From the NCBI RefSeq assembly GCF_003576315.1, contig NZ_QWFZ01000039.1, forward strand, positions 62,001-126,000: a stretch of 64,000 nt of DNA. The letters are read 5' to 3'. Shown here in pieces: positions 1-48,410 of this stretch. Numbering within the stretch: position 1 is the stretch's first letter; each line of letters begins with the position of its first letter. The position numbers were made by a program, and so were the translations under genes. The notes under the pieces were generated by a model. The model was not told the DNA's origin and did not search any database. It saw only the letters and a program-made list of their open reading frames with translations. The DNA is from Henriciella mobilis (lineage in GTDB: Bacteria > Pseudomonadota > Alphaproteobacteria > Caulobacterales > Hyphomonadaceae).

Positions 1-3
1 GGA

Positions 4-2925: not shown

Positions 2926-2989
2926 ACTGAACAACAAATGACATCGCTGCCAGGCGGTGGTCCCAACATATTACTAACTGGAGGGCTAA

Positions 2990-4393: not shown

Positions 4394-4415
4394 GCGCCGA
4401 ATCTCTGTAAGAACG

Positions 4416-4451: not shown

Positions 4452-4576
4452 GGGTGAACAGGATATCCACCGCTGTAAACACTCCCGGTCTTGCGTGAGC
4501 CGCATGCTGGACAAATATTCAAAGCTCTGCGACGACGCAGATAAGATTCATTCAATTAATGGCTGGAAGCGATCGA

Positions 4577-5200: not shown

Positions 5201-5321
5201 TCCGGGCGGATGCGCAGGTCCTCTTGCGTGTCCGGACTTAAAAAATAAGATCGAAGGCAAGCGATTTTTTTTGCGCGCGGCATAAATCGTGCGTTAATCG
5301 ATCGCAAGCATTGAGGTGGCC

Positions 5322-6587
5322 ATGACCAAACAAAACGGCTCCGGCGATTCGAAGAACACGCTGTATTGCTCCTTCTGCGGCAAAAGCCAGCATGAAGTGA
5401 AAAAGTTGATTGCCGGTCCGACGGTGTTCATTTGCGATGAATGTGTCGAGCTCTGCATGGATATCATCCGTGAAGAGAGCAAGGCCTCGGGCTTCAAGTC
5501 GAAGGAAGGCGTGCCAGCGCCTCGCGAAATTTGTGATGTCCTGGACGATTATGTGATCGGGCAGTCCTATGCGAAGCGCATTCTGTCGGTGGCAGTTCAC
5601 AATCACTATAAACGCCTTTCCCATGCATCAACGTCTGATGGCGTGGAGCTGGCGAAATCCAACATTCTGCTGGTCGGCCCTACGGGTTGCGGCAAGACGC
5701 TGCTCGCCCAAACGCTGGCGCGCATTCTTGATGTGCCGTTCACGATGGCTGATGCGACCACGCTCACGGAAGCCGGTTATGTCGGCGAGGATGTCGAGAA
5801 CATCGTGCTCAAGCTTTTGCAGTCGGCCGACTACAATGTCGAGCGGGCCCAACGTGGCATTGTCTATATCGATGAGATCGACAAGATTTCCCGCAAGTCA
5901 GACAACCCGTCCATAACCCGCGACGTTTCGGGCGAAGGCGTGCAACAGGCGCTGCTAAAGATCATGGAAGGCACGGTTGCTTCGGTACCTCCACAAGGCG
6001 GGCGCAAACATCCGCAGCAGGAATTCCTGCAGGTCGACACGACGAACATACTGTTTATCTGCGGCGGGGCCTTCGCTGGCCTCGACAAGATCATCAGTTC
6101 GCGCGGTGAAGGTACGCGCATGGGGTTCGGTGCAGATGTCAAAGATCCGGATGCGCGCGGCGTTGGGGAAGTCCTGCGTGATGTCGAGCCGGAAGACCTA
6201 CAGCGGTATGGCCTGATCCCGGAATTTATCGGGCGTCTGCCGGTCATTGCGACGCTTGAGGATCTGGATGAAGAAGCCCTGATCGAGATTCTGACCCAGC
6301 CGAAGAATGCGCTGCTCAAGCAGTACCAACGCCTCTTCGACATGGAAGAAGTGACGCTTACTTTTACCGACGAGGCTCTGACCGCTGTTGCCCGTAAGGC
6401 TATCGCTCGCAAGACAGGTGCGCGCGGCCTGCGTTCGATCATGGAAGGCATCCTTCTTGATACCATGTTCGAACTGCCGAACCTGCGCGGCGTCGAGGAA
6501 ATTGTGGTCAATGGTGAAGTGGTCGAAGGGCACGCAGCACCACTGCATGTGCACGCCAAGGCGGCAAAGCCGAGCGAAGCTTCCTGA
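5322..6587 (+). CDS. clpX: ATP-dependent Clp protease ATP-binding subunit ClpX
   Basis: A 421-residue AAA+ unfoldase partner of ClpP. The N-terminal zinc-binding domain has Cys16, Cys19, Cys38 and Cys41 (CSFC and CDEC). Walker A is GPTGCGKT at about 121-128, Walker B is in IVYIDEIDK, and sensor and C-terminal subdomains follow. I prefer the ATG at 5322 over an in-frame GTG six bases earlier, because GAGG lies five bases before the ATG and partly covers the GTG. It sits in the clpP-clpX-lon order. Confidence 0.97.
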
Positions 6588-6728
6588 TCCACAAAAAAGG
6601 TCTGCGCAAGCCAGCTTGAATGGCGCGTATTAACCTCCACATCTTCCTGTAGAAGCCGGAATCGTCCAGACTAAAGGGGCGCCGGCAGGATCGCTGCTGA
6701 GCAGGATCCAGGAACTAAGGAGGCATGA

Positions 6729-9137
6729 ATGCCCAAGCAAACCCTCCCAGTCCTTCCTTTGAGGGACATTGTTGTCTTCCCTGACATGGTCGCGCCGCTT
6801 TTTGTGGGCCGTGACAAGTCTGTCCGGGCGCTTGAAATGGTCGATGAAGGCGAGAACGAGATAATGCTCGTTGCTCAGAAAGATCCGTCGACAGACGAGC
6901 CAACAGCTGATGACATTCACCAGCTCGGTACCGTTGCAACCATATTGCAGCTGCTGAAGCTGCCCGACGGGACCGTCAAAGTGCTGGTTGAAGGCTCGAG
7001 CCGTGCGCGTATCGTTCAGTTTAACGATCGCGACAGCTATTTTGATGCCGAAGTTGAGCTGATTGAAGCTGAGGCTGGCGATACGGGTGAAGTGCAAGCG
7101 CTTGCACGCGCCGTCATCGACCAGTTTGAAAACTATGCCAAACTGAACCGGAAGATCCCCCCGGAATCCGTCGCGACGGTGTCGCAAATCACCGAACCTG
7201 GAAAACTCGCGGATGCGGTTGCGTCGCAGCTCCAGGTCAAGCTCTCCGACAAACAGGAGCTGCTTGAGATGTCGAATGCTCGTGAACGCCTTGAAAAGGT
7301 ATTCGCTCTCATGGAGGGCGAAATGGGCATGATGCAGATGGAGCGGAAGATAAAGAACCGCGTCAAGCGTCAGATGGAGAAGACCCAGCGCGAGTATTAC
7401 CTGAATGAGCAGATGAAGGCTATTCAGCGAGAGTTGGGCGATGCTGGTGATGGCGAACGCGACGAGGTTGCTGAGCTTGAGGAGAAAATCCGCGAAACGC
7501 CGCTCAGTGAGGAAGCTCGTGCGAAAGCGGACCAGGAAGTGAAAAAGCTTCGTCAGATGAGCCCGATGTCAGCGGAATCGACCGTTGTCCGGAATTATCT
7601 CGACTGGCTGCTTGCGCTTCCATGGGGTAACCGCAAGGAGATCTCGACCGATCTCGACAAGGCCGAGCAGCAGCTCGACCATGACCACTATGGTCTGGAG
7701 AAGGTCAAGGAGCGGATCATCGAATATCTTGCTGTGCAGAAACGCACCAAGAAGATGAAGGGACCGATCCTGTGTCTCGTCGGTCCTCCCGGCGTAGGTA
7801 AGACGTCACTTGGCCGCTCGATTGCTGAAGCGACTGGACGTGACTTCGTTCGCGTTTCGCTTGGTGGTGTTCGTGACGAAAGCGAGATTCGCGGTCACCG
7901 TCGGACCTACATTGGCTCCATGCCTGGTCGCATCATCCAGTCCTTGAAAAAGGCCAAGTCCGGCAATCCGTTGTTCCTGCTTGATGAGATCGACAAGATG
8001 GGTATGGACCATCGCGGCGATCCGGCCTCTGCGCTTCTCGAAGTGCTGGACCCAGCCCAGAACTCGACGTTCAACGACCACTACCTGGAAGTCGATTACG
8101 ATCTTTCTGATGTTATGTTCGTGACGACGGCGAATTCGCTCAACATGCCACAGCCGCTTCTTGATCGGATGGAGATCATTCGCATCGCTGGTTATACAGA
8201 GCCGGAGAAGATGGAGATTGCGAAGCGTCACTTGCTGCCGAAAATCCGCAAGGACCATGGTTTGGCGGAAAGCGAGTGGATCGTAAGCGATGACGCAATC
8301 CGGGATCTCGTGCGGTACTATACGCGTGAGGCCGGGGTGCGCAGCCTGGAGCGTGAACTCGCGAGGCTTGCTCGTAAGGCCGTTCGTCGTATTGCACAGA
8401 GCGATGAGTCGGTCATCGAGGTTACGGCGGAAAACCTTTCTGACTTTGCCGGCGTGCGGAAGTTCCGTTTCGGTCTTGCCGATGAGGAAGATCAGATCGG
8501 GGCGGTAACCGGACTTGCCTGGACCGAAACGGGCGGCGACCTGCTGACCATCGAAGCGGTCCAGATGCCCGGCCGTGGTATGATGAAAGTTACGGGCAAC
8601 CTGCGTGACGTGATGAAGGAGTCGATCCAGGCGGCAAGCTCGCTTGTTCGGTCCCGGTCGATCATGCTCGGCATCAAGCCCAGCCAATTCAACACGACGG
8701 ATATCCACGTGCACGTGCCAGATGGTGCAACGCCCAAGGATGGCCCATCGGCCGGTATTGCAATGACCACAGCGATTGTATCGCTACTGACGGGTAATCC
8801 GGTCCGACGGGATGTCGCCATGACAGGTGAAGTGTCGCTGCGCGGACGGGTCCTGCCGATTGGGGGGCTCAAGGAGAAGCTCCTGGCTGCGCTGCGAGGC
8901 GGCATCAAGACGGTGCTGATCCCTGAGGAGAATGAGAAGGATCTCGATGAGATTCCTGAACAGGTCAAGGAAGGGCTGAAGATCGTGCCCGTTACGGACA
9001 TCAATGAGGTGTTTGCCCGCGCCCTGACGCGCCCGCTGACGCCCATCGAGTGGTCGGATGAAGACGAGGCAGCCTTGCAGGCCAGCCTCGCAGGAAAGTC
9101 ATCCGATCCCGATGTCGGTGAAACAATCCGCCACTAG
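6729..9137 (+). CDS. lon: ATP-dependent protease Lon
   Basis: An 802-residue LonA protease. It has an N-terminal substrate-binding domain, a coiled-coil linker, an AAA+ module with Walker A GPPGVGKT (about 352-359), and a C-terminal protease domain with the Ser674/Lys717 dyad (KDGPSAG and GGLKEK). A perfect AAGGAGG five bases before the ATG predicts strong translation. Lon degrades misfolded and regulatory proteins such as the methyltransferase CcrM in Caulobacter. In many Alphaproteobacteria the HU gene hupB follows lon; here the next gene is a tRNA. Confidence 0.98.
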   Translation: MPKQTLPVLPLRDIVVFPDMVAPLFVGRDKSVRALEMVDEGENEIMLVAQKDPSTDEPTADDIHQLGTVATILQLLKLPDGTVKVLVEGSSRARIVQFNDRDSYFDAEVELIEAEAGDTGEVQALARAVIDQFENYAKLNRKIPPESVATVSQITEPGKLADAVASQLQVKLSDKQELLEMSNARERLEKVFALMEGEMGMMQMERKIKNRVKRQMEKTQREYYLNEQMKAIQRELGDAGDGERDEVAELEEKIRETPLSEEARAKADQEVKKLRQMSPMSAESTVVRNYLDWLLALPWGNRKEISTDLDKAEQQLDHDHYGLEKVKERIIEYLAVQKRTKKMKGPILCLVGPPGVGKTSLGRSIAEATGRDFVRVSLGGVRDESEIRGHRRTYIGSMPGRIIQSLKKAKSGNPLFLLDEIDKMGMDHRGDPASALLEVLDPAQNSTFNDHYLEVDYDLSDVMFVTTANSLNMPQPLLDRMEIIRIAGYTEPEKMEIAKRHLLPKIRKDHGLAESEWIVSDDAIRDLVRYYTREAGVRSLERELARLARKAVRRIAQSDESVIEVTAENLSDFAGVRKFRFGLADEEDQIGAVTGLAWTETGGDLLTIEAVQMPGRGMMKVTGNLRDVMKESIQAASSLVRSRSIMLGIKPSQFNTTDIHVHVPDGATPKDGPSAGIAMTTAIVSLLTGNPVRRDVAMTGEVSLRGRVLPIGGLKEKLLAALRGGIKTVLIPEENEKDLDEIPEQVKEGLKIVPVTDINEVFARALTRPLTPIEWSDEDEAALQASLAGKSSDPDVGETIRH

Positions 9138-9161
9138 TCAGCCTCTTTAATTGCAAACTGA

Positions 9162-9192
9162 ACGGCCCCTGCGCTTATGCGGCAGGGGCCGT
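9162..9192 (+). terminator. Hairpin downstream of lon, probable terminator
   Basis: A perfect 11-bp GC-rich stem (ACGGCCCCTGC / GCAGGGGCCGT) with a 9-base loop, 24 bases after the lon stop. The T tract after it is weak, so it may act with Rho or as a 3-prime end stabiliser. Confidence 0.6.
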
Positions 9193-9234
9193 ATTGCATT
9201 TCAGGACAACCTCACGCACAAAGCGGATAGAGTA

Positions 9235-9310
9235 GGGCGGTTAGCTCAGCTGGTAGAGCATCTCGTTTACACCGAGAGGGTCAGCGGTTCGAACCCGTTA
9301 CCGCCCACCA
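9235..9310 (+). tRNA. tRNA-Val (anticodon TAC)
   Basis: A complete cloverleaf with a 7-bp acceptor stem (GGGCGGT / ACCGCCC), D-loop GCTCAGCTGGTAGAGC, anticodon stem TCTCG/CGAGA and loop TTTACAC with anticodon TAC at 9268-9270. The T-arm contains GGTTCGAACC. Discriminator A and CCA are encoded. It lies about 100 bases after lon on the same strand. Confidence 0.97.
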
Positions 9311-9362
9311 TTTTCCGAACGGGAACTCCAAAGAAAGACAAAGTAGCGTGGTACGGGAAGCT

Positions 9363-9914
9363 TTATCTGGCTTCCGTCATCTCGCGCTTGCGTGCTCTTG
9401 CGGCTTCAACATCCGAAATCAGGCCTAGGTAGGTATCTCCGAGTGGAGGCGAGGACTCGGATACGCCCAGCAGCCTGACCAGGTCATCTATCGTGACCTT
9501 TTCCTTCGACCGGCTGGCGATCCGGGCGACAATGCAGAGCCGAGCGGTTTCGGAAGCCTTGTGCAGAAACCGATGCTCCAAGCAGAGGTAAGTGTCACTC
9601 CAGCCGACGAGCCGGGTTTCCACGGAAAATGTTTGATGGGCGCGCAGCATTCCTGCGAACGTAACGGATTCAGCACACACAACGGGAAACCAGCCCCTTT
9701 TTCTGAACTGTTTCCAGGCGCCTGTGCGAACGACATAATTGATGATGCCGAGATCACTGAAGGAGAAGTACCGGCTGTTTGTCATGTGCGAAAACATATC
9801 CTGATCCGTCAGCATGACCCTTGAGCGAATTTCAGTTGTATCAAACAGGCTAGCTCGTTCTGTCGAAAAGCTGGCGCGCAGGAATGTTAGAACAAGTCTC
9901 AGGAAAAGGTTCAT
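9363..9914 (-). CDS. Acyl-CoA thioesterase family protein (hotdog fold, THEM6-like)
   Basis: A 183-residue protein resembling the 4-hydroxybenzoyl-CoA thioesterase-like / THEM6 group. The hotdog pattern is seen in TDQDMFSHMTNSRYFSFSDLG (about 36-56), where the Asp and HMTN region corresponds to the family active-site helix. The substrate is unknown. The N-terminus is mildly hydrophobic but is not a clear signal peptide. The gene follows the FAD oxidoreductase gene with a gap of 25 bases on the same strand, so the two may form an operon. Confidence 0.75.
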   Translation of the reverse strand: MNLFLRLVLTFLRASFSTERASLFDTTEIRSRVMLTDQDMFSHMTNSRYFSFSDLGIINYVVRTGAWKQFRKRGWFPVVCAESVTFAGMLRAHQTFSVETRLVGWSDTYLCLEHRFLHKASETARLCIVARIASRSKEKVTIDDLVRLLGVSESSPPLGDTYLGLISDVEAARARKREMTEAR

Positions 9915-9939
9915 CGGCTGGTCAATCTCTCCCGGCCAC

Positions 9940-11193
9940 TCAAGCTTCGCGCTTTAGCCTTCTGACGAGGTCTGCATTGAAGTTGACGATGTTGGATACG
10001 GCCTCATGCGAGAAAGTCGCGCCTGCGTACCAAGTCGCCGCCTCTCCCTGCATGTCCCGGAACCTTTGAAGTAATCCATTCCGAATCGCCTCGCAGTCAT
10101 ACTGCGCGAAATACTTCCAGCTCTTCTGAAGGATAACATTCACTGGACGACCGCCTTGGGCCGTGATTTCGGAGAGCAAGATTTCCTGGAGTTCTGCGTC
10201 AGAGTAGGTGCCTGTCAATTGGCCGGTCAGATACAACTGTCCGCCAAGTTCGGGTTCCCGACCATCGAGCCGAGCAGACATCATTCGTCCATATGGTGCG
10301 CCTGGAACGACTGCTGCGCTGTATGCCTGAACGGTCACATCGTCAAACCAGTCCTGAACAGCGACGAGCGTGGTTGTATAACCGTTCCACTTTACAGCCT
10401 CGGCGACGGCTTTTTCATTCTCTGTCGGATCGGCGATCGCATTGAATTCATCCATGGCAATCGTACAGACGATCAGGTCGAACTCCTGAGCGACGCCAGT
10501 TTCAGTTGTTATCGACGGCAGCGCACCTGTCCGATCGACTTTAGTGACGCGGCTTGCGAGATTTACATCCAGACCGGCCGCCGCCCGCTCCCAGAATGCG
10601 CTCCATCCCTGCGCTGGCATCTTAAGCTGTTTGAGTAGTCCCGTCAGAATAAGATCCAGATCGTTCCAACGCATGGCTTGCACTGTTGGCGTCTCATCGA
10701 CAAAGCCATAGCCGAGATTGGTCATGGACCTGTACATGAACCGTTCGATCTTGTGCAGCTTTCGTTCGCGCAACCATTCTGCAATTGGTTGAGCCGCCTG
10801 TTTCTGGGCCCAATCGGGTATTCGAGCACGCCCCAAGGCGGACATCAGCCGTTGGCGTGCATAAAGAAACTGTGCGACCTGGACAGCGAGCGGTGCTCCG
10901 TCTCCTCGTTTTACGTAATCCAGAAAGTCTTCGCCATCGAAAAGCTGTTCGCCAAGGGGCCGCAGATCAATTCTGGCTTTCTTCATCCAATCCAGAACAC
11001 GTCTGTGTGCCCGGGTAGTGTAACAAGTGCCCATTTCGACGACAGCGTCGCCTCTGACAAAGGAAAACGACTTGCCGCCCAGATAGGGATTGGCCTCAAA
11101 GACCGTTGGGTGGAATCGTCCTGTCTCTTGCAGCAGCCGCGCCAGGCTGAGGCCGGCAGGGCCGCCTCCGATTATTCCTACGCTACGCTTCAT
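9940..11193 (-). CDS. FAD-dependent oxidoreductase, flavin amine oxidase-like
   Basis: A 417-residue flavoprotein. The N-terminal dinucleotide-binding motif GGGPAG (9-14) is followed by an acidic residue at the end of the second strand (VFEAN) and the GG motif NPYLGGKSF, as in protoporphyrinogen oxidase and amine oxidase relatives. The middle domain is aromatic-rich and probably forms the substrate pocket. No signal peptide is visible. The substrate cannot be named. It is probably co-transcribed with the downstream thioesterase-like gene and is divergent from the histidine kinase gene. Confidence 0.75.
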   Translation of the reverse strand: MKRSVGIIGGGPAGLSLARLLQETGRFHPTVFEANPYLGGKSFSFVRGDAVVEMGTCYTTRAHRRVLDWMKKARIDLRPLGEQLFDGEDFLDYVKRGDGAPLAVQVAQFLYARQRLMSALGRARIPDWAQKQAAQPIAEWLRERKLHKIERFMYRSMTNLGYGFVDETPTVQAMRWNDLDLILTGLLKQLKMPAQGWSAFWERAAAGLDVNLASRVTKVDRTGALPSITTETGVAQEFDLIVCTIAMDEFNAIADPTENEKAVAEAVKWNGYTTTLVAVQDWFDDVTVQAYSAAVVPGAPYGRMMSARLDGREPELGGQLYLTGQLTGTYSDAELQEILLSEITAQGGRPVNVILQKSWKYFAQYDCEAIRNGLLQRFRDMQGEAATWYAGATFSHEAVSNIVNFNADLVRRLKREA

Positions 11194-11338
11194 GAGTAGA
11201 GTTTAGTCCTAGGGGCAGTTTCGGGCCGACGATGGTTCAAGTGATTTCTCGCAATAGCGGCTTTTACAAGCGAGGATCTTCTGCAGGTCTCAATGCAATT
11301 TAGACATTTGGACTGCTTTGTTTTGCAGGAAGTTAAGA

Positions 11339-13075
11339 TTGTTCTTGTACCAGCGTCTCTTAATGGCTGCGCCCTCGACTACTCCGTCATGGATCAGACT
11401 TTTGTTTGATCGACTGCCCGCACCGCGCACGGCAGTGGAGGGACGCGTATACGGCGAGATGCAGTCGCTTCTGGTGCGATTGCTCGTGCCAATGGCTGTC
11501 ATCAACATCGTAAACGGCCTTATCTATTCTGCTGCCTTCCTGCAGGTGGTTGAAGTCTGGAAGGTTGCCATATGGTTTGTGCCTGTTGCGCTGTATTCGC
11601 TCATGCAGACCCTGGCCTACATGCGGCTTTCCAAAAAGAAGACGCCGACTCACGTATCTGGACGGTTCCTGCGCAAGGCCGAGCTATCGTCTCTTGTGCT
11701 TGGCGTGATATGGGGTGTTTCTACCTATCTCTTCCATTCCGACAATCAGCTCGCGAACCTTTTTATCTGTATCGTTATTGCAGGCATGGGCGCGGGCACA
11801 ATGTCGATACTTGGGCCTGTTGCCCGGGTCGGTAGCCGATTCCTGATCGGCAGCGTCACAATCATGCTGGCGACGAATATCCTTAAGAATTCGCCATTTG
11901 CGGTCGAGGTGACCCTTCTGGCACTGTCCTTCACGGCCGCATTGCTGATTGGCGGCGCTCGCAACTACCGTCACATCTACGACATGATCGTCCAGGGCAT
12001 GCAAAGTGAGACGGCTAAAGAGCTGCTCGCTGACGCTATTGAATCGTCCAATGACGCATTTGCCTTTTATGAAGCGAACGGCGACCTCATGGTCGCTAAT
12101 GCGCGACACCGCGACTGGATTGGAACTGAAAAGCCGGAGTTTCATGTCGGTGAAGACCGGGTGCCCGTCCTTCTCAAGAACGGACGTTGGCTAATGCGTT
12201 CAACCCGGGAGACGGGGAAGGGCGGCGCCGTTGTTGTTCATACGGATATTACAGCGCTCAAGACGCGGGAACGTGAGCTGATCGAAGCTCAACGCGAGGC
12301 CGTAGAAGCAGATGCGGCGAAAAGTCGTTTCCTTTCGACAATGAGCCATGAGCTTCGCACGCCCATGAACATCATTCTCGGTTTCTCGAAGCTCATGAAC
12401 GGCGATTCGAAGATCCGTCTTTCAGACGAGGAAATCCGCGAGTATGCAGACAATATTCACACAAGCGGCACGCACCTTTTGAAGCTAATCAATGACATCA
12501 TTGATTATTCAAAGGTCGGCCTGGATCGCATTGCAATCAATCCGACGGCAGTGGAGACACAGGCGTTACTGACCGAAGCGATTACGCTGGCGGCCGGATT
12601 TGAGAGTAAGCCATCAGTGGACTCGTTTGATGTTTCGGTATCACCGAAGCTGTCGATGATGATGGTCGACGAAACCGCGATGAAGCGAATTCTCATCAAC
12701 CTGCTGACCAATGCCATCCGTTTTAATCGTGAGGGCTGCAAAGTTGTGATCCGGGCGGGGCTCAATGGCGAGGGCGTACCATTCATTGCAGTGCGCGATT
12801 TCGGGCCAGGTATTCCTGAGAACAAGCTCGAGCGTGTTTTCGAAGCATTCTATCAAGGCGACTCGAATCTTGACCGCCAATATGGTGGGACCGGGCTCGG
12901 TCTCACGCTATGTCGGCACTTGGCGCGTCTTTTGGCTGGCGATGTGATCCTGAAGTCGCGTGTGGGCGTTGGCACGACAGCCATCCTCACGCTTCCAAAA
13001 TCTGTACTGGTTCATGAAGAACAAATCACTGTCGCCGAAGCCAATACTGAGAGCGAAGACCGGGACGTTGCGTAG
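11339..13075 (+). CDS. Polytopic sensor histidine kinase, orphan
   Basis: The N-terminal third has about six hydrophobic segments. A PAS-like region follows (around SSNDAFAFYEANGDLMVAN), then a HisKA domain with phospho-acceptor His337 in MSHELRTPMN and a HATPase domain with N box (NLLTNAIRFN), G1 (DFGPGIPE) and G2 (GGTGLGL). The layout resembles the membrane-bound cell-cycle kinases of Caulobacterales, but I cannot assign it to one. No response regulator is nearby. The start is uncertain: I use TTG at 11339, six bases after AGGAAG. The first in-frame ATG, at 11363, has no ribosome-binding site. The stop lies one base before the convergent rlmJ stop. Confidence 0.85.
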   Translation: MFLYQRLLMAAPSTTPSWIRLLFDRLPAPRTAVEGRVYGEMQSLLVRLLVPMAVINIVNGLIYSAAFLQVVEVWKVAIWFVPVALYSLMQTLAYMRLSKKKTPTHVSGRFLRKAELSSLVLGVIWGVSTYLFHSDNQLANLFICIVIAGMGAGTMSILGPVARVGSRFLIGSVTIMLATNILKNSPFAVEVTLLALSFTAALLIGGARNYRHIYDMIVQGMQSETAKELLADAIESSNDAFAFYEANGDLMVANARHRDWIGTEKPEFHVGEDRVPVLLKNGRWLMRSTRETGKGGAVVVHTDITALKTRERELIEAQREAVEADAAKSRFLSTMSHELRTPMNIILGFSKLMNGDSKIRLSDEEIREYADNIHTSGTHLLKLINDIIDYSKVGLDRIAINPTAVETQALLTEAITLAAGFESKPSVDSFDVSVSPKLSMMMVDETAMKRILINLLTNAIRFNREGCKVVIRAGLNGEGVPFIAVRDFGPGIPENKLERVFEAFYQGDSNLDRQYGGTGLGLTLCRHLARLLAGDVILKSRVGVGTTAILTLPKSVLVHEEQITVAEANTESEDRDVA

Positions 13076-40231: not shown

Positions 40232-40464
40232 TTGAACCTCATTCTGTGGTCTCTTGCATGCGCGACTTTTCTGTCGGCAGCCCAGGAACGAATTCCTGAT
40301 AAAGGCCGTTTACCATGTCACAATGGACATAGCATGAATGGCTGCATCGAGATTCAAGCGCGACCAAAACACAATATTAACTATCTGGCGAAATGAGGCG
40401 GAAATGTGGTTCAGCCGCCCTATTGCTTTTCGCGCTACCATGTCGGAAACAGGCGCCCGGCCAC

Positions 40465-40555
<91 letters not shown>

Positions 40556-40680
40556 CTTTTTTTCGCGGCGCGACGCCGGTGTGGAGCTCGTCGGCGTCGA
40601 AATCCGCTTCATTCGCAGGATTCTGGAGGTTGCGAAGTTCGAAAAGCGCCTTCAATCTCCCTGGAGGGAGGTGGAAGACG

Positions 40681-41052
40681 ATGTTGCGAGTAATTCTGGG
40701 CATAAGCCTTTGCTTGTTGATTTTGACTGCGTGTAGCGAACCGCGGGCCGCGCAAGACCTTCCGGAGGCGGCCCCGCCCGATCATGTTGAGCTGTTGGGG
40801 CGCGGCGAAGCGATCGCTGAAAATCTATGCGCCAAATGTCATGCGATCGGCATTACCGGAGAAAGCCCGCATCCTGATGCGGTACCATTGCGGCAACTGT
40901 CCTGGAAGTATCCAGTTGATGAGCTTGAGCAGCCTTTTTTGCAGGGCATCGTCGTGGGCCACCCGGACATGCCGGAATGGCAATTTACACAGCAAGATGT
41001 CGATGCACTCCTTGCCTATATCGAGAGCATCCAGGAACCGCAGACTATCTGA
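40681..41052 (+). CDS. Small c-type cytochrome, lipoprotein
   Basis: A 123-residue monoheme cytochrome c. The lipoprotein signal is MLRVILGISLCLLILTACS (acylated Cys 18), heme attachment is CAKCH (about 51-55), and the likely axial Met is in HPDMPEW. The ATG at 40681 has GGAGGGAGG upstream; a longer frame reaches back into the tRNA and is not real. It should be anchored in the periplasmic face of a membrane and shuttle electrons; the partner is unknown. It precedes the beta-CASP nuclease gene by 93 bases on the same strand. Confidence 0.88.
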   Translation: MLRVILGISLCLLILTACSEPRAAQDLPEAAPPDHVELLGRGEAIAENLCAKCHAIGITGESPHPDAVPLRQLSWKYPVDELEQPFLQGIVVGHPDMPEWQFTQQDVDALLAYIESIQEPQTI

Positions 41053-41145: not shown

Positions 41146-42510
41146 ATGGCTGACAAGATTACATTTCTTGGCGGGGCAGGCACGGTCACAGGGTCGAAGT
41201 ACCTGGTCGAGTCCGGTAACAAGCGAGTTTTGATCGATTGCGGTTTGTTCCAGGGTTTCAAGCAGCTTCGGTTACGGAACTGGAAGCCCTTGCCCGTTTC
41301 GCCATCCGACATCGATGCCGTTCTACTGACGCATGCGCACATCGATCATTCAGGTTACCTGCCGCTTCTGGTGAAAAACGGATTCAGGGGAGACATTCAT
41401 TGTACCGAGCCGACCAGGGCGCTTTGCGAGATATTGCTACCTGATAGTGGCCACCTACAAGAACGAGAGGCGGAGTTTGCAAACCGCAAAGGGTTTAGCC
41501 GTCACAAACCTGCCCTGCCCCTGTATACACAGGACGATTCCTATCGCTGCCTCCAGCATTTTCGAACGCATCCGTTCTCCGAAGCCATCGAAATCATCGA
41601 AGGCGTTGAAGCAGTATTTCGCGAAGCCGGACACATACTGGGAGCAGCATCCATTGAAATGCAGACGAGCGACAATCTGATCGTCTTTTCCGGGGACCTT
41701 GGACGATACGGAACGCCGATCATGCATGATCCTGCGGAAATCAAGCAGGCCGACTACCTACTCGTCGAGTCGACATACGGCGATACCACGCATACTGAAA
41801 CAGATCCCGAGGACGTGCTCGAGGCGATCCTGAACCGGACTTTTTCGCGCGGTGGAACGGTCGTGATTCCATCCTTTGCGGTTGGCCGGGCACAGACGCT
41901 GCTGTTCCATATCAGTCGACTGATACATTCTGGGCGTATTCCGCAGGTGCCAGTTTATCTCGACAGTCCAATGGCGATTAACGCGTCCGAGTTGTTCGTT
42001 CGGTTTGCCAAGACGCATAAATTGACGCGTGCAGAAGCTGAAGAAGCCTGCGGCGTTGCTGAATATGTTCGTGAAGGCAAAGATTCCCAGAAATTGGACC
42101 AGGACCAGACCCCCAAAATCATTATCTCGGCAAGTGGCATGGCCACGGGTGGTCGTATTCTTTATCATCTGAAAGCGTTCGCTCCAGATTCACGAAATAC
42201 AATCCTGTTCGCAGGATACCAAGCCGGCGGAACGCGAGGCGCCGCGATGCTTGCCGGCGCAACGAAGATCAAAATCCATGGTTCCTATCACCCGGTTCGC
42301 GCTGAAGTGCAAAACCTTCATATGCTTTCGGCCCACGCGGATTCCGACGAAATCATGCGTTGGCTGGGATGTTTCGGACGCGGCCCGAAAGAAACGTTCA
42401 TTGTTCACGGCGAGCCCGTGGCCTCTGATGCTTTGCGCCTGCGGATTGCTGAGGAGCTCGGATGGTCCGTTGTGATGCCGGAACATGGCGAAACGCGGGA
42501 CCTCCCATGA
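41146..42510 (+). CDS. MBL-fold beta-CASP ribonuclease-like protein
   Basis: A 454-residue metallo-beta-lactamase/beta-CASP protein. The metal motif is HAHIDHSG (HxHxDH), with further ligands in AGHILGAAS and SGDLG. The beta-CASP insert includes STYGDTTH and SFAVGRAQ, and the C-terminal motif region reads SASGMATGGRI and HGSYHPVRAEVQNLHMLSAHAD. Homologues cut or trim RNA. It overlaps the next gene by ATGA, tying it to a nucleoside-phosphorylase and PRPP-synthetase pair. Confidence 0.9.
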   Translation: MADKITFLGGAGTVTGSKYLVESGNKRVLIDCGLFQGFKQLRLRNWKPLPVSPSDIDAVLLTHAHIDHSGYLPLLVKNGFRGDIHCTEPTRALCEILLPDSGHLQEREAEFANRKGFSRHKPALPLYTQDDSYRCLQHFRTHPFSEAIEIIEGVEAVFREAGHILGAASIEMQTSDNLIVFSGDLGRYGTPIMHDPAEIKQADYLLVESTYGDTTHTETDPEDVLEAILNRTFSRGGTVVIPSFAVGRAQTLLFHISRLIHSGRIPQVPVYLDSPMAINASELFVRFAKTHKLTRAEAEEACGVAEYVREGKDSQKLDQDQTPKIIISASGMATGGRILYHLKAFAPDSRNTILFAGYQAGGTRGAAMLAGATKIKIHGSYHPVRAEVQNLHMLSAHADSDEIMRWLGCFGRGPKETFIVHGEPVASDALRLRIAEELGWSVVMPEHGETRDLP

Positions 42511-44018
42511 ATGCTCCCTCATCAATCAATCAGTTGCATGCGCGTCGCCTCGGACTTCTCAGTCAGCATGAAGCCGTCGCGCTGGTTCATGTGGATTGCC
42601 CCATTTGCCGATCGGAAGGTGTGAGCGCGCATAGCCGGGTGACCCTCACCAGCGGTGGCAAATCCATTATTGCTACGCTCTACCAAGTATCAGCTGACTG
42701 GCTCGCGACGAACACCATTGGACTATCAGAAACGGCCTGGACCGGGCTTGGTCTTGACGACAAGGGAGAGGTCACCGTCACGCACTCCCCGCCAGTTCTG
42801 TCTCTCTCTTTTGTCCGCCAGCGAATTTTTGATGATGGCCTGAATGAACGCCAAATCAGTTCTATTGTCCGCGATATCGTTAGTGGCGCTTACTCTGATA
42901 TCCATCTTGCGGCTTTCGTCACGGCCATTTCAGCGCGCCCACTTTCGGATGGCGAGGTAACATCGCTTACGAGAGCGATGATCGAAACCGGGGATCAAAC
43001 AGAGTGGGATGAAAAAACCGTCGTAGACAAGCACTGCGTGGGTGGCCTGCCCGGAAATCGGACAACGCCAATCGTTGTTGCCATCGTTGCCGCACATGGT
43101 TTGCTAATTCCAAAGACGTCGTCGCGAGCAATCACGTCTCCCGCGGGAACCGCCGACACAATGGAAGTCCTCACACGTGTCGATCTTTCTGGAGACGAAA
43201 TGCGAAAGGTTGTTCGTCAGACGGGAGGGTGTTTTGTCTGGGGTGACGGGGTGGGATTCAGTCCGGCCGATACAGATATCATCCGTGTCGAACGAGCGTT
43301 GAACTTTGATGCCCCGGGGACGATGGTCGCGTCCGTCCTATCCAAGAAGATCGCGGCCGGGTCTACCCACATCGTTATTGATATGCCCGTGGGACCGACG
43401 GCAAAAGTCAAGAACGTCGTCGAAGCCCGCCAACTTTCAAACGTCTTCGATACGGTCGCATCCGCTTTTGGAATTCATTTGCGGATCGAGATAACAGATG
43501 GCTCTCAACCCGTTGGAAGGGGCATCGGGCCGGCGCTTGAAGCACGCGACGTTCTTGCTGTTCTGGGGAACGAGCCGAACGCACCTGCAGACTTGTTGGA
43601 GAAATCATGCGTCCTGGCGGGTGCCATCCTGGAGTTGGCTGGCATCGCTCAGCCTGGCGAGGGCAAATCAATGGCCGAGGATACCATCGCGAATGGAAAG
43701 GCCTGGGCAAAATTTTTAGCAATTTGCGACGCTCAAGGCGGTTTGCGCGAACTTCCTGAAGCGAAATACAAGCGTCCAATTTACGCGCCATTCAACGGTC
43801 GCGTGGCGTCGATCAATAACAGGAAACTCGCGCGTGCGGCCAAACTGGCTGGCGCACCGGACGACAAGGCGGCTGGTCTTGATCTCAAAGTACGCCTTGG
43901 TGACCAGGTCTGTCAGGGCGAAGCGCTTTTTGTCTTGCATACCGAGACGATCGGCGAGCTAACTTATGTATTGGACTATGTCCATGCCAACCCGGACATC
44001 ATCGAGCTGACACATTGA
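42507..44018 (+). CDS. AMP phosphorylase / thymidine phosphorylase family protein
   Basis: A 503-residue pyrimidine-nucleoside phosphorylase-fold protein. DKHCVGGLPGNRTTP and PKTSSRAITSPAGTADTME are the signature of the long form related to archaeal AMP phosphorylase (NMP + phosphate to base + ribose 1,5-bisphosphate) rather than classical DeoA. An N-terminal extra domain (about 1-85) is also typical of that form. The start at ATG 42507 overlaps the nuclease stop (ATGA); a frame open 15 codons further upstream has no support. Substrate not proven. Confidence 0.85.
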   Translation: MNAPSSINQLHARRLGLLSQHEAVALVHVDCPICRSEGVSAHSRVTLTSGGKSIIATLYQVSADWLATNTIGLSETAWTGLGLDDKGEVTVTHSPPVLSLSFVRQRIFDDGLNERQISSIVRDIVSGAYSDIHLAAFVTAISARPLSDGEVTSLTRAMIETGDQTEWDEKTVVDKHCVGGLPGNRTTPIVVAIVAAHGLLIPKTSSRAITSPAGTADTMEVLTRVDLSGDEMRKVVRQTGGCFVWGDGVGFSPADTDIIRVERALNFDAPGTMVASVLSKKIAAGSTHIVIDMPVGPTAKVKNVVEARQLSNVFDTVASAFGIHLRIEITDGSQPVGRGIGPALEARDVLAVLGNEPNAPADLLEKSCVLAGAILELAGIAQPGEGKSMAEDTIANGKAWAKFLAICDAQGGLRELPEAKYKRPIYAPFNGRVASINNRKLARAAKLAGAPDDKAAGLDLKVRLGDQVCQGEALFVLHTETIGELTYVLDYVHANPDIIELTH

Positions 44019-44941
44019 GCCCACAGCAGATACTATATGCCCTTCCGGGGAACGATGAACTGTACAACGCCATGCTCAGCGCGGGAGGCTTTGACGGTGG
44101 TTTGCTTGAGGTGAGCCGCTTCCCGGATGGCGAAAGTTATTTAAGGTTCGAGACCAATCCAGAAGGAAAACACATCGCCCTGTTCGCAAGCCTGAATCAC
44201 CCAGATGCGAAGCTTATTTCATTGCTTCTGGCGGCGCGAACGGCTCGTGATCTGGGGGCGGCTTCAGTTGGGCTGATTGCGCCATACATGCCTTACTTCC
44301 GCCAGGACATCGCATTCAGGCCAGGTGAATCTGTGAGCGCCCGCCATATCGGGGCAATCCTGTCAGACAATTTCTCATGGGTGGTTACCGTTGACCCCCA
44401 CCTGCATCGACTGACTCAAATGGCAGACGTATTTTCGATCCCTGCATCAGTCGCATCTTCCACTACCGCGATGGCCGCCTGGATAATCAAAAATACGGAA
44501 TGCCCAATCATATGCGGTCCTGACTCTGAAAGTGAACAGTGGGTCAGCAAGATCGCTGCAGCTTGCGGTGCGCCATATCTCGTATTTCAGAAAACAAGAT
44601 ACGACGCGAAATCCGTTGAGGTGGCAGTTGCACCCGATCTGGACATATCCGGTTATACCCCGGTGATAATCGACGACATCATTTCAACGGGCGGAACGGT
44701 CATGTCTTTGGCGAAGGAACTCGCCCGGCTAGGTAGCCGGCCTGCGATCTGCTGTGTGGTTCACGCACTTTTTTCAAGCGATGTCGAAGACAGAATTCTT
44801 GGCGCGCGCGTTGACCGCGTAATCACAACGAATTCGATTTCTCACAGGACTAATGCGGTCGACATTTCCGAAGCACTTGCCGAATCCACTAAGGCGACTT
44901 TTTCCACTATCGCGAACATGGGGACAAACATCGCTAAGTGA
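44015..44941 (+). CDS. prs: Ribose-phosphate pyrophosphokinase-like protein
   Basis: A 308-residue PRPP-synthetase homologue. It has FPDGESYLRF, the FRQDIAFRPGESVSARH loop, VDPHLHR, the RYDAKSVEV segment and the PRPP-binding VIIDDIISTGGT. This is probably a second, divergent Prs dedicated to this operon, because the housekeeping Prs is usually encoded elsewhere. Translation starts at TTG within TTGA, the TGA being the stop of the preceding gene. It converges with ackA, leaving 14 bases. Confidence 0.85.
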   Translation: MSPQQILYALPGNDELYNAMLSAGGFDGGLLEVSRFPDGESYLRFETNPEGKHIALFASLNHPDAKLISLLLAARTARDLGAASVGLIAPYMPYFRQDIAFRPGESVSARHIGAILSDNFSWVVTVDPHLHRLTQMADVFSIPASVASSTTAMAAWIIKNTECPIICGPDSESEQWVSKIAAACGAPYLVFQKTRYDAKSVEVAVAPDLDISGYTPVIIDDIISTGGTVMSLAKELARLGSRPAICCVVHALFSSDVEDRILGARVDRVITTNSISHRTNAVDISEALAESTKATFSTIANMGTNIAK

Positions 44942-44955
44942 CGTAGCTTTTGAAC

Positions 44956-46146
44956 TTATCGGGCTTCGAGGACTGACAAGGCGTCGCGAGCGATCACGAC
45001 TTCTTCATTCGCGGGAATAACAAGCACTTGCACCCTGGACGCAGATGTCTGGATCTCTCGGTGCCCAGAATCGTTTGCGCTCGAATCGATTTGAAGCCCC
45101 AACCACTCCAGATGGGCGCAGATATCTTGACGCACGGGTGCCGAGTTCTCCCCTACTCCGCCAGTAAACACAAGCGTATCCACGCCGTGGAGAGCCGTCG
45201 CAAGTGATCCGATTTCTCGGGCTATCCGGTAGGTGTACACAGCCAGAGCTTCCGTTGCAGCGGTCTCAGAGTTCTCAAGAAGTTCGCGGACATCGCCACT
45301 GATACCCGAAAGGCCCAGCAATCCTGACTCCTTGTAGAGCATTGTAGACAAGTCGCGGGCGCTCATGCCCTTATCCATCATCAGGTGAAGGAGCAATCCA
45401 GGATCCAGGCTGCCTGCACGGGTCGACATTGGCACCCCATCCAATGCAGTCAGGCCCATAGACGTCGCTATGCTTTTTCCGTTCAGCATGGCGCAAACGC
45501 TTGCACCACTACCGAGATGTGCCGCAATAGCTTTCGAACGTTTCCCTGCCTGGGTCAGTCCTTCAAGCTGAGAAGCTATATGGTCATAGGAAAGACCGTG
45601 GAATCCAAAGCGAAGGAGCCCTTCTTCAGATAGATGTCTGGGTATTGCATAAAGCTGCGCTACTCGAGGCTGGGTTCGATGAAAAGCTGTGTCGAATGAA
45701 AGTGTCTGGGGGATTTCGGGCCAAATCCTGGAAATCCCCTTTACGCCGTCCAGGTTGGCGGGCTGGTGCGATGGCGCAAGGCTGGTTAAACTGCGCAGAC
45801 GTTTGAGTATATTTGTATTCGCGAGCACGGGACCATCAAAGTCACGTCCACCATGTACGACGCGATGGCCGATTGCTCTTAGGTCGACATCCTGCAGCGC
45901 ATCCGCAGCCCATTTAGCGAGCGCGCCAACGAGTTCTGACTGGTCGGACACACGAGACGAAAGGGCCTCGGGCATTTGGTCCAGGCGTTCTTCCGGTGTG
46001 TTCGCCACGAAGCGCATATCATTGGGTAAACCAGACAGGTTGACCTTTAACAGGCAGTTTCCAAGGGTCATGCCCGAGCGCTCATATGCCGACAGTTTGA
46101 TGCTTGATGAGCCGGTATTGACCGTCAGGATCGCCTCGCGTCTCAA
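44956..46146 (-). CDS. ackA: Acetate kinase
   Basis: A 396-residue ASKHA-fold kinase converting acetyl phosphate and ADP to acetate and ATP. Motifs are LTVNTGSSSIKLS at the N-terminus, GHRVVHGG, FDTAFHRT, RFGFHGLSYD, AHLGSGASVCA and TGGVGENS near the C-terminus. The true start is TTG 46146 in a TTGA overlapping the pta stop; a longer frame reaching 46191 lies inside pta. Coupled with the upstream phosphotransacetylase gene. Confidence 0.93.
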   Translation of the reverse strand: MRREAILTVNTGSSSIKLSAYERSGMTLGNCLLKVNLSGLPNDMRFVANTPEERLDQMPEALSSRVSDQSELVGALAKWAADALQDVDLRAIGHRVVHGGRDFDGPVLANTNILKRLRSLTSLAPSHQPANLDGVKGISRIWPEIPQTLSFDTAFHRTQPRVAQLYAIPRHLSEEGLLRFGFHGLSYDHIASQLEGLTQAGKRSKAIAAHLGSGASVCAMLNGKSIATSMGLTALDGVPMSTRAGSLDPGLLLHLMMDKGMSARDLSTMLYKESGLLGLSGISGDVRELLENSETAATEALAVYTYRIAREIGSLATALHGVDTLVFTGGVGENSAPVRQDICAHLEWLGLQIDSSANDSGHREIQTSASRVQVLVIPANEEVVIARDALSVLEAR

Positions 46147-47081
46147 TGCGTCATCCCCATCGCTCGCGCAAACAGGTTGGCAAGGGCACAAGAACCGACG
46201 CGCTCTGCAGCACTATCGGCGCGGCTCGTCAGAATTATTGGCACTTTTGCCCCGATGACGAGCCCAGCAGCGGCGGCGCCGGCCAAATAGTCAAGTTGCT
46301 TCGCGATCATATTGCCCGCCTCGAGTGAAGGCACCACCAGAATATCTGCTGCTCCTGCGACAGGTGAGGTCATTCCCTTAGCCGCAACCGCCTCAGCAGA
46401 AATTGCCAGGTCAAATGCAAGCGGACCATCCAGCAGGCCGCCAACGATCTGCTTCCGGTCCGCCATTTTGCACAAGGCGGCCGCGTCGATGGTCGAAGGA
46501 ATGTTCGGGTCGACCTCTTCTGTGGCGGAAAGGATCGCCACCAGCGGCGTTGGAACACCAATCGCGATGGCGAGCTCTATTGCATTTTGAACGATGTCCC
46601 GCTTCGTTTTGAGGTCCGGCGTAATATTGATGGCGCCATCCGTGATCATCAGATGCTTGGGGTAAGCCGGTGTCTCCATGACGAAGACATGGCTCATCCG
46701 GCGTTCAGTCCGCAGGCCGTTCGACTTGTCGATGATAGCCTTCATGAGCTCGTTTGTGTGAATTGCACCTTTCATAATGGCGTTCACACTGCCTTCGCCC
46801 GCTAGTTTCGCTGCCATGGCGGCCGCAGCGTGGCTGTGAGGCGTGTCTATCAACTCCACGCGCGATAGATCGATTCCTGTGGATTTAGCCGCAGATGCAA
46901 TCTTGTCCCTCGGGCCAATAAGAACCGGTTCTATCAGTCCCGCAGTCTTTGCATCCATAGCGCCGCCAAGAGAAAGGTGATCAACTGGATGCACCACAGC
47001 CGTTCGAAGCGGCTTGCCTTTTGCTTTGGCAATCATCTCTTGAAATGCTTGCGTGGGGTCCGAAGCGGCGGAAGAAGACAT
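46143..47081 (-). CDS. pta: Phosphate acetyl/butyryltransferase
   Basis: A 312-residue enzyme of the PTA_PTB family that swaps CoA and phosphate on acetyl (or butyryl). GAIHTNELM, SHVFVMETP, ITDGAINI and VPSLEAGNMIAKQL are typical. It lacks the N-terminal DRTGG/AAA region of long Pta and the MaoC hydratase domain found fused in some relatives. The start at ATG 47081 is preceded by AAAGG; the reading frame is open 44 codons further but without support. With ackA it makes or consumes acetyl phosphate. Confidence 0.9.
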   Translation of the reverse strand: MSSSAASDPTQAFQEMIAKAKGKPLRTAVVHPVDHLSLGGAMDAKTAGLIEPVLIGPRDKIASAAKSTGIDLSRVELIDTPHSHAAAAMAAKLAGEGSVNAIMKGAIHTNELMKAIIDKSNGLRTERRMSHVFVMETPAYPKHLMITDGAINITPDLKTKRDIVQNAIELAIAIGVPTPLVAILSATEEVDPNIPSTIDAAALCKMADRKQIVGGLLDGPLAFDLAISAEAVAAKGMTSPVAGAADILVVPSLEAGNMIAKQLDYLAGAAAAGLVIGAKVPIILTSRADSAAERVGSCALANLFARAMGMTH

Positions 47082-47196
47082 CGACGCGTACCTTTTGGCT
47101 GTCAGCGATCCATTGAGCCCCGTTGAACGGCCCGCATCAAGAGCCAGCGAAGCGAAATACGCAGCGCCTCGCTCGTTACGCGACTGGTTCCGCAGC

Positions 47197-47841
47197 CTAA
47201 GCCGCTTTCCCAACAGGATTATTGCTCGTGATAGCTGATTCCAATACGCCAGGACGATGCCAAGCGCCCTCCGGTCGGATCAAGATGTATGGATCCGAGT
47301 ACGGCGTGATCGTGGATGGGTGCAGCGGTACGGGAATATCGATTTCAAGATATTCATAGCCTGAGAAAGAAAAACTCGGTCGGTCTTCGCGGAGCTTGCA
47401 GATCAGCACCTTTGACCAGAGCCGCCAGAGGCGGGCCTGAATTTGTCCGATCATCAGCCTGTAGCCCTTTATCGCTGCTATTTCAAAGGCGTGGGCGAGC
47501 AGGATCCGATCCAGAAATCGCCCTCGGGCGCGCGGAAGAATGCAAACCCTTTCGATTTTTCCGAAAGCGGAGAACCATCTCAGCCTCAATGTGGCAACAG
47601 GCTCGTCGTCAATAAAGCCCAGCAGATGCAAACCTGCGAGGTCATTTCCGTCATACTCCTCATCATATGGGCAATTCTGTTCGGCCAGGAAGACAGCAGC
47701 CCGCAAGGCGAAGACTTTCTGCAGGTCGTCCAATGTCCTAGCCACTTTGACCGTCGTTCGATCAAAATGATGCCTGCCGGGTTTCGTGCGAAGCACCGCA
47801 GCACCAGTACCCGGATAATCAAGTGAATTTGAATTCTTCAT
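47197..47841 (-). CDS. GNAT family N-acetyltransferase
   Basis: A 214-residue acyltransferase. The GNAT core is seen in VFLAEQNCPYDEEYDGND, LGFIDDEPVATLRLRW and IERVCILPRARGRFLDRILLAHAFEIA, the last being the acetyl-CoA-binding motif A region. The C-terminal 80 residues are unlike standard GNATs and may form the acceptor site. Its ATG overlaps the stop of the upstream unknown gene (ATGA), so the two probably work together. Acceptor unknown. Confidence 0.78.
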   Translation of the reverse strand: MKNSNSLDYPGTGAAVLRTKPGRHHFDRTTVKVARTLDDLQKVFALRAAVFLAEQNCPYDEEYDGNDLAGLHLLGFIDDEPVATLRLRWFSAFGKIERVCILPRARGRFLDRILLAHAFEIAAIKGYRLMIGQIQARLWRLWSKVLICKLREDRPSFSFSGYEYLEIDIPVPLHPSTITPYSDPYILIRPEGAWHRPGVLESAITSNNPVGKAA

Positions 47842-48410
47842 GCCACAGGATCAAAAACAAAGAGGTCCGGAAGTCCTCCTTGAAGACGCCGGAAACCGAG
47901 TGACATCATGGACCGCGCGCCATCCTCCGTTGCGCCACGTGCATAACACGGCACGGGTGCATACAGAGACACTCTGACCGACGCAGAAGCAGACATGACG
48001 GAACGGCGCGCTGCTTTTGTCCCCCCCGCATAGCATCCAACATACAAGCCGAATATCGGAGTATTGGCAGGAGCAACGTGGCGAAGGGCCGGATCAGACG
48101 GGTCGAATTCTCCATCCTCAACGCTGGCCCTACCCTCGAAGGTCAACGGAACGATTAAATAGAGACCGTCTATCGGATCTCCTGTGACCCAGATCGTCAT
48201 TTTGGTAATCATATCCAGCGTGTATACAACTTCTGCTCGCGCAAGTGTGCCGCCGATCAGCATTTCGCCGAGCGCGAGAGCCGCTTCAATGTTGCTGGGC
48301 TCACATCGCCTCAGGCCATGGGCCATCATTGCCTCAGTCATCTCCTCAGGAGTGACCGTGCAATACGGATAGCTGGTAAATGGCACAACCGACTGGTGAA
48401 TCGTCATCAC
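47838..48410 (-). CDS. Protein of unknown function, paired with GNAT gene
   Basis: A 190-residue protein I do not recognise. It has no signal peptide or transmembrane helix. An Ala/Leu-rich helix (about 43-60: IEAALALGEMLIGGTLARAE) is followed by beta-strand patterns, and the C-terminus GFRRLQGGLPDLFVFDP looks like the final strand of an acyltransferase-like fold. It is preceded by a ribosome-binding GGGAGAAA sequence. It is the first gene of a two-gene unit with the GNAT and is divergent from a LysR regulator, the usual layout for a LysR-controlled target. Confidence 0.7.
   Translation of the reverse strand: MMTIHQSVVPFTSYPYCTVTPEEMTEAMMAHGLRRCEPSNIEAALALGEMLIGGTLARAEVVYTLDMITKMTIWVTGDPIDGLYLIVPLTFEGRASVEDGEFDPSDPALRHVAPANTPIFGLYVGCYAGGTKAARRSVMSASASVRVSLYAPVPCYARGATEDGARSMMSLGFRRLQGGLPDLFVFDPVA

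Follow-up and report, generated by a model that had tools for sequence, protein, structure and literature searches.

Within a 64,000-nucleotide stretch of the Henriciella mobilis genome (the window; positions 62,001 to 126,000 of contig NZ_QWFZ01000039.1, assembly GCF_003576315.1) lies a compact gene unit whose core is a near-obligate pair, formed by an archaeal-type nucleoside monophosphate (NMP) phosphorylase and a divergent homologue of the phosphoribosyl pyrophosphate (PRPP) synthetase Prs. A ribonuclease gene precedes the pair, and genes for acetate kinase and phosphate acetyltransferase converge on it. The explanation that we favor, to which we assign a probability of roughly 40%, is that the unit breaks RNA down by phosphorolysis and salvages its ribose to form ATP, with acetyl phosphate as intermediate. 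An earlier, sequence-only reading of this stretch had proposed a route from RNA through NMPs and a pentose bisphosphate to PRPP, with phosphate or ATP balanced through acetyl phosphate; RNA or NMP salvage linked to acetyl phosphate is probably the right kind of process, and PRPP is probably not its end product.

The nuclease, phosphorylase and Prs genes follow one another in the plus direction, each overlapping the next by four bases (41146-44941). The first encodes a ribonuclease of the beta-CASP/metallo-beta-lactamase (MBL) type (41146..42510, plus strand, 454 aa). The phosphorylase gene lies at 42507..44018 (plus strand, 503 aa); its longer open reading frame (ORF) from 42462 is mechanical, and a start is possible at ATG 42507, with which the overlap with the nuclease gene becomes ATGA. 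The gene for the Prs homologue (44015..44941, plus strand, 308 aa) starts at TTG 44015 and shares four bases with the phosphorylase stop. On the minus strand the acetate kinase gene ackA (44956..46191; PF00871 and TIGR00016 over cut-off) converges on the Prs gene, with 14 bases between its end and position 44941, where the Prs gene stops, and is overlapped by the phosphate acetyltransferase gene pta (46143..47213, minus strand; PTA_PTB family, with PF01515, NF008852 and NF006045 over cut-off). The five genes, the tight overlapping operon and the short distance to ackA-pta were all seen again as the sequence-only reading had given them. The source genome (G000) comprises 3.97 Mb in 39 contigs, and the window copy, on contig C33 (G000:C33), is referred to below as locus L038.

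The pairing of phosphorylase and Prs was surveyed in 249 genomes of the phylum, evenly drawn, with 14 control genomes searched alongside. Both the phosphorylase (model TIGR02645) and the divergent Prs (model NF005537) score over cut-off in 30 of the 249 genomes, with 32 genes each, and the two sets of genomes are identical: the Prs is present in 30/30 genomes with the phosphorylase and in 0/219 without it, and none of the 14 controls has it over cut-off. Gene neighborhoods were compared at 49 loci, consisting of 32 from the module genomes (G000 and G154 contribute two apiece), four from a single-protein search for related loci, and 13 from plasmids. The single-protein search gave five loci, one of which is a pyrimidine nucleoside phosphorylase (PyNP) locus that was kept as an outgroup; this locus (L074), one from a PhnN search (L085) and two haloarchaeal loci (L086 and L087) are left out of the 49. 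Hyphomonas are the closest named relatives via the phosphorylase in that search (69% identity). A module Prs lies no more than 4.3 kb from the phosphorylase in 46 of the 49 loci and no more than 0.2 kb from it in 44. At L069, which has no nearby Prs, the contig end cuts the phosphorylase, and its C-terminal part and a Prs are on another contig of the same genome; at L088 the Prs is elsewhere on the same Variovorax replicon. No Prs match was found at the two haloarchaeal AMP phosphorylase loci (11 kb). The pair is present in at least three phyla, Pseudomonadota, Chlamydiota (Criblamydia) and Bacteroidota, and the clustering, described in the sequence-only reading as recurrent in Proteobacteria, is conserved more strongly than a single stretch of DNA could show. 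Of the outcomes named there as refuting, neither a lack of conserved clustering nor a window Prs that is the sole housekeeping enzyme was found.

The phosphorylase is annotated as a 'thymidine phosphorylase family protein', and its Pfam domains are Glycos_transf_3 and PYNP_C. It scores 576.6 with TIGR02645 (cut-off 434.6) and 645.3 with NF003338 (cut-off 434), and 213.1 with the thymidine phosphorylase model NF004490, below the cut-off of 269; the closest solved structures are 4ga5/4ga6 (338 bits). In a midpoint-rooted tree of 49 bacterial, three archaeal and one PyNP row, in which the archaea and PyNP are thinly sampled, all the bacterial rows group in a single clade (100/99) beside the archaeal AMP phosphorylases, with the PyNP row distant on a very long branch. 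In the alignment the signature KTSSRAITSPAGTAD (43113..43157, plus strand) is common to archaeal AMP phosphorylase and not to PyNP: most of its columns are alike in 47-49 of the 49 bacterial rows, with A after P in 41, the three archaeal rows share KTSSRAITS-AGTAD save for I/V, T/S and P/A changes, and the single PyNP row reads KMSGRGLGFSGGTLD. Because the clade stands beside the archaeal enzymes and shares this signature with them, it has probably been misannotated as a thymidine phosphorylase; the reaction predicted from sequence is NMP + Pi -> base + ribose 1,5-bisphosphate (R15P). The tree, the signature and the TIGR02645 score agree with the AMP-phosphorylase type first proposed for it.

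The Prs homologue scores 344.6 with NF005537 (cut-off 322). Three Prs genes are present in the source genome, a housekeeping gene with 399.2 bits to TIGR01251 and the two module genes with 187 and 184.6 bits, so that the window Prs is not the housekeeping enzyme, and is divergent as the sequence-only reading had it. An AlphaFold model of the module Prs (29 sequences; pLDDT 93.7) has T. volcanium Prs as its best structural match (Z 34.8, rmsd 1.7, 287 aligned), and thus the full PRPP synthetase fold. We aligned 46 module Prs with two distinct other Prs, one of them entered twice. One loop reads G-P-D-x-E(S/A)xxW in all 46 module sequences (residue 173 is S in 43 and A in three), and GPDSESEQW in the window copy (residues 168-176; 44516..44542, plus strand), whereas it is SPDxGGxxR in the comparison Prs and PDxG(G/A) in three archaeal PDB sequences; the loop PDxG(G/A), taken as a test for PRPP synthetase, occurs in 0/46 module Prs. 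We take this to be the pyrophosphate-binding loop of the family, which would hold the diphosphate of PRPP. The F-P-D-x-E, RQD, catalytic H, K-x-R and DD motifs are kept in 46/46, and in all 46 the catalytic histidine is followed by x-H-R, an extra H-R. In Escherichia coli Prs, residues D170, D220, D221, T225 and T228 contact ribose 5-phosphate (R5P; PMC9232217); matched by motif and number rather than by alignment, D170, D220, D221 and T228 are kept in all 46 module Prs, whereas at position 225 there are 16 with T and 30 with S. The change of Gly to Glu in the loop suggests that the module Prs departs from other Prs in how it handles the diphosphate, but not in how it handles the 5-phosphoribosyl group.

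Neither RuBisCO nor R15P isomerase (TIGR00511) gave a match in the whole source genome, which extends beyond the window the absence already recorded in the sequence-only reading, and the only match to PhnN is a weak one (36.4 bits, cut-off 156). Among the 249 genomes the isomerase is over cut-off in none (151 have a weaker match), and it is over cut-off in three of the 14 controls; 14 of the 30 module genomes have no RuBisCO match. The partner that accompanies the phosphorylase constantly is thus Prs.

In the pathway that we infer, in each of its reactions, its direction of flux and its physiological role, an optional beta-CASP RNase would supply NMPs, the phosphorylase would convert these with Pi to free base and R15P, and the altered Prs would catalyze phosphoryl rather than pyrophosphoryl transfer, passing the 1-phosphate of R15P to AMP (R15P + AMP <-> R5P + ADP). 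Ordinary pentose-phosphate isomerases would take R5P to xylulose 5-phosphate, phosphoketolase would convert this with Pi to acetyl phosphate and glyceraldehyde 3-phosphate, and acetate kinase would form ATP from acetyl phosphate and ADP. Such a route would cost little or no ATP and could be an emergency energy supply when respiration fails, at low oxygen or possibly under copper stress. The proposed Prs step has ordinary Prs geometry minus one phosphate and so matches the lost diphosphate site, and it would also explain why a Prs, and not an isomerase, accompanies the phosphorylase. Its exact reaction is nevertheless the weakest step of the scheme, and we put it forward as tentative, with the odds against it as written. 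We would likewise call it possible, though rather doubtful, that a Prs-fold R15P:AMP phosphotransferase with a rebuilt pyrophosphate loop is a further exit for R15P beside the isomerase and PhnN, by which bacteria obtain acetyl phosphate and ATP from a phosphorolytic fermentation of the ribose in their RNA, with RNA as an energy reserve when oxygen or respiration fails.

Enzymes of acetyl phosphate metabolism recur beside the pair, in line with the sequence-only reading: a phosphoketolase-family (XFP) gene is found in eight of the 49 loci (L037, L050, L051, L057, L064, L077, L080 and L089) and an acetate kinase gene in five (L038, which is the window, L046, L050, L051 and L080). The phosphoketolases at L064 and L080 are bona fide. 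In the four XFP-like proteins tested, the motifs GH, GxGH, SH, PDE, YEAF and SHQD are kept and DGEAETG is among those changed. XFP is present in 10/30 module genomes against 28/219 others (Fisher p 0.012, relatedness ignored), so that the phosphoketolase branch is enriched, not universal. Both kinds of neighbor are easier to reconcile with R5P than with PRPP as what the Prs step forms. We note that the proteins at L077 (5278-7662) and L089 (10421-12877) are annotated 'xylulose 5-phosphate 3-epimerase' and belong to the phosphoketolase family by Pfam; the annotated name is probably wrong.

The source genome holds a second copy of the module on contig C26 (G000:C26:57326-63767; L037: 4827-11268), in which XFP-like, nuclease, phosphorylase and Prs genes follow one another with two four-base overlaps and one three-base gap, and the phosphorylase is 53% identical to that of the window. 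The XFP-family protein on this contig is the only one of the genome, and is over the Pfam cut-off and far under the NCBIfam phosphoketolase cut-offs. Other genes of C26 (88.9 kb) code for a multicopper oxidase and a P-type ATPase. About 21 kb upstream of the second copy is a run consisting of a DUF3141 gene, ackA, pta, a thiolase gene and an enoyl-ACP-reductase-like gene, followed by this P-type ATPase gene (G000:C26:31746-40236; L098: 1747-10237). The genome has two AckA, each with an adjoining Pta, and one further PTA domain within a frame of 766 aa. One ackA-pta is on the window contig and the other on C26, so that each AckA gene is found on the contig of one of the two module copies. The Variovorax plasmid L079 likewise has an annotated DUF3141 protein close to its module.

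On the Criblamydia plasmid L080, positions 1-12665 carry on one strand, by annotation, genes for a P-type ATPase, phosphoketolase, glycogen phosphorylase (glgP), an ATP-cone protein, the MBL nuclease, the phosphorylase, Prs and acetate kinase. As annotated, those enzymes of this run that release sugar phosphates do so with phosphate in place of ATP, and the locus looks like a reserve-mobilizing island in a chlamydial relative.

The nuclease has MBL, Beta-Casp and RMMBL domains (PF00753, PF10996 and PF07521), all over Pfam cut-offs, its closest solved relative is the RNase TTHA0252 (254 bits), and it has the metal-binding motifs HAHIDH, GHILG, SGDLG, VESTYGD, LSAHAD and VHGE, as predicted for a beta-CASP ribonuclease. 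Among the NCBIfam models it scores highest with Cas14 of type VII CRISPR (NF045584), at 369.8 bits against a cut-off of 800; the type VII CRISPR nuclease may have descended from such a stand-alone RNase. A nuclease gene is near the pair in 30 of the 49 loci (one of them a fragment), including 14/32 genome loci, and gene order varies, with the nuclease first or last. None is near the pair in the other 19, a search that covered the neighborhood of the pair and not the remainder of those genomes; some of these loci are cut off where a contig stops. The nuclease is an optional member of the unit, and RNA as the obligatory start of the route, as in the sequence-only reading, is not supported, given these 19 loci.

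Expression tables from Bradyrhizobium diazoefficiens connect the module with low oxygen. At 0.5% O2 the transcripts of bll3115 (MBL), bll3116 (Prs), bll3117 (phosphorylase) and the phosphoketolase gene bll2518 rise 15.4-, 7.7-, 5.1- and 8.2-fold, respectively, and the corresponding proteins rise by log2 2.9, 4.4, 2.1 and 4.3 (PMC6515984, Table 2). Without FixK2, bll3115, bll3117, bll2518 and the acetate kinase gene bll2517 are down 30.6-, 6.6-, 10.0- and 10.2-fold, and putative boxes are given upstream of bll3117 and bll2518 (PMC9104804, Table 2). We take bll3115-3117 to be the module from their product names and their gene order (phosphorylase-Prs-MBL), which the Bradyrhizobium plasmid L083 shows too. 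Because the operon is raised by low oxygen, an ATP-consuming PRPP synthetase would be odd in it beside ATP-making enzymes. In the region of the second Henriciella copy there are four TTGA-N6-TCAA sites against 0.28 expected, one of them within the XFP-like ORF, toward its 5' end; as regulatory boxes they are suggestive only. Our literature searches found no description of the unit, and the sequence-only reading had likewise known of no biochemical one; the module genes appear together only in these two tables. Their bll locus tags occur nowhere else in the main texts of PMC6515984 and PMC9104804, as far as the text available of each extends, and bll3115 occurs once in what is available of PMC5017801.

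Several observations weigh against the energy-salvage explanation. At standard state the conversion of R15P + AMP to R5P + ADP is probably endergonic, so that high AMP would be needed. The phosphorylase falls short of the AMP phosphorylase equivalog model TIGR03327 (488.8, cut-off 535), our literature searches turned up no published assay for any member of the module family, and the Shinella plasmid L076 has a phosphorylase with no Prs over cut-off on the plasmid and only a nuclease fragment. RuBisCO is present in 16 of the 30 module genomes. A PTA gene is near in only two of the 49 loci, and the close relatives L040, L041, L070 and L071 show no ackA or pta match within the examined stretches. 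Six of the eight phosphoketolase-family genes are of a divergent group: those of L037, L057, L077 and L089 are over the Pfam cut-off and far under the NCBIfam phosphoketolase cut-offs, and those of L050 and L051 are assigned to the group by similarity only. The 20 module genomes without an XFP match must use R5P otherwise. As to regulation, no FNR/FixK-type box was found in 19.5 kb around the window copy. In Bradyrhizobium, bll3115-3117 and bll2518 are in the lenient list (log2 fold change of at least 1), outside the 62 most significant proteins, and are unmarked as direct FixK2 targets or as bacteroid-raised (PMC6515984, Table 2), and bll3116 appears in the operon column only, with no fold change of its own (PMC9104804, Table 2).

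The alternative that survives best is an adjusted form of the earlier route, in which Prs would catalyze R15P + ADP -> PRPP + AMP, NMPs would feed PRPP for base salvage or biosynthesis, and acetyl phosphate would be a mere neighbor. R15P is the expected product of the phosphorylase, Prs could replace the PhnN that is not seen over cut-off, and the R5P-site and catalytic residues are kept within a full-length PRPP synthetase fold. Ordinary Prs chemistry, however, requires a free 1-OH. R15P is without one and the pyrophosphate loop is altered in all 46 sequences, which makes PRPP the less likely end point; furthermore, the phosphoketolase-family enzymes and acetate kinase, as recurrent and co-regulated partners, do not use PRPP, and a housekeeping Prs is already present. 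We consider this alternative unlikely, at perhaps one chance in several.

Still less probable is an ordinary PRPP synthetase using R5P and ATP, with the phosphorylase removing the released AMP and thereby pulling the reaction or trimming AMP in stress. Prs does release AMP, on which the phosphorylase presumably acts, and the classic catalytic residues are kept; this proposal nonetheless does not account for the conserved alteration of the loop, for a Prs additional to the housekeeping enzyme, or for the making of R15P with no exit. A little below it we place the anabolic direction, in which Prs makes R15P from R5P and ADP and the phosphorylase joins R15P to free bases, giving a PRPP-independent salvage of nucleobases. 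Both reactions are reversible in principle and the pairing suits either direction, but the RNase beside the pair in 30/49 loci (one a fragment), the phosphoketolase-family and acetate kinase partners, and the low-oxygen induction all point to catabolism. That the phosphorylase is a thymidine or pyrimidine nucleoside phosphorylase, and the operon one of ordinary nucleoside catabolism, is very unlikely: the annotation and the Pfam domains would agree with it, whereas the position of its clade apart from PyNP, the common signature and the scores with TIGR02645 and NF004490 all speak against it.

A P-type ATPase match occurs in 17 of the 49 loci, and on the plasmids L081, L082 and L090 a copper-type P-type ATPase gene directly follows the module Prs; plasmids account for 10 of the 17, and six matches reach only 78-154 bits, so we do not count a P-type ATPase or copper link as defining. 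A passenger of heavy-metal or stress islands, or a defense module, with no joint pathway, scarcely deserves credence despite these ATPases and the Cas14 model, since the strict pairing holds also in the 32/49 loci with no P-type ATPase match, the plasmids are a biased sample, the Cas14 score is far below its cut-off, and PADLOC on five proteins gave one weak MBL match (E 0.00037).

The upstream boundary of the unit in the window is a tRNA-Ser(tga) gene (40465..40554, plus strand), with a small cytochrome c gene between. The cytochrome c Pfam match is in the ORF 40393-41052, whose first-ATG form crosses the tRNA gene, and its true start is probably later. Downstream of pta, a 190-aa ORF (47841-48410) stands beside a GNAT-like ORF and a LysR-type regulator, and has no Pfam or NCBIfam match at E 0.001. 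A genomic island at the window copy was considered and rejected, as GC is 0.52 to 0.57 over 36-52 kb with no step at the unit.

If the proposed Prs step is right, the unit would provide a new enzyme activity, give sense to a pair annotated 'thymidine phosphorylase' and 'ribose-phosphate diphosphokinase', make RNA turnover part of low-oxygen energy metabolism, and assign a function to FixK2-dependent Bradyrhizobium genes. Relatives of AMP phosphorylase are in any case spread over no fewer than three bacterial phyla, and a Prs having the same changed loop almost always accompanies them.

In archaea, the NMP shunt or pentose bisphosphate pathway consists of AMP phosphorylase, R15P isomerase and RuBisCO. 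The bacterial unit shares with the shunt of Thermococcus kodakarensis the same first enzyme, by tree and signature, and the entry of nucleotides as NMPs; it differs in that the isomerase is over cut-off in 0/249 genomes, RuBisCO is unmatched in 14 of 30, and the divergent Prs takes the second place. PhnN is of a kinase family other than Prs. The handling of R15P in a bacterium is shared with E. coli, where the PhnN route runs from R5P through ribose 1-phosphate (R1P) and R15P to PRPP (PMC9700705), although PhnN is not over cut-off in the source genome. A further relative is the haloarchaeal non-carboxylating pentose bisphosphate pathway, with guanosine phosphorylase, an ATP-dependent R1P kinase, R15P isomerase, a ribulose 1,5-bisphosphate phosphatase and an aldolase (PMC9700705); as described there it too is phosphorolytic and passes via R15P without RuBisCO, but none of those five enzymes is a gene of the present unit. 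PRPP synthetases have been sorted into 12 classes (PMC13252144), and AMP phosphorylase, thymidine phosphorylase and phosphoketolase do not occur in that paper's main text as far as it is available. With class III (archaeal) and class I enzymes the module Prs shares the full-length fold and the R5P and catalytic residues, and it differs in the GPDxE(S/A)xxW loop, in the H-R after the catalytic histidine, and in reaching its cut-off in no surveyed genome that lacks the phosphorylase. Lactic acid bacteria ferment pentoses and nucleosides by phosphoketolase and acetate kinase, and the proposed pathway would resemble theirs in running from R5P through xylulose 5-phosphate and acetyl phosphate to ATP; nucleosides enter there via R1P, whereas here NMPs would enter via R15P.

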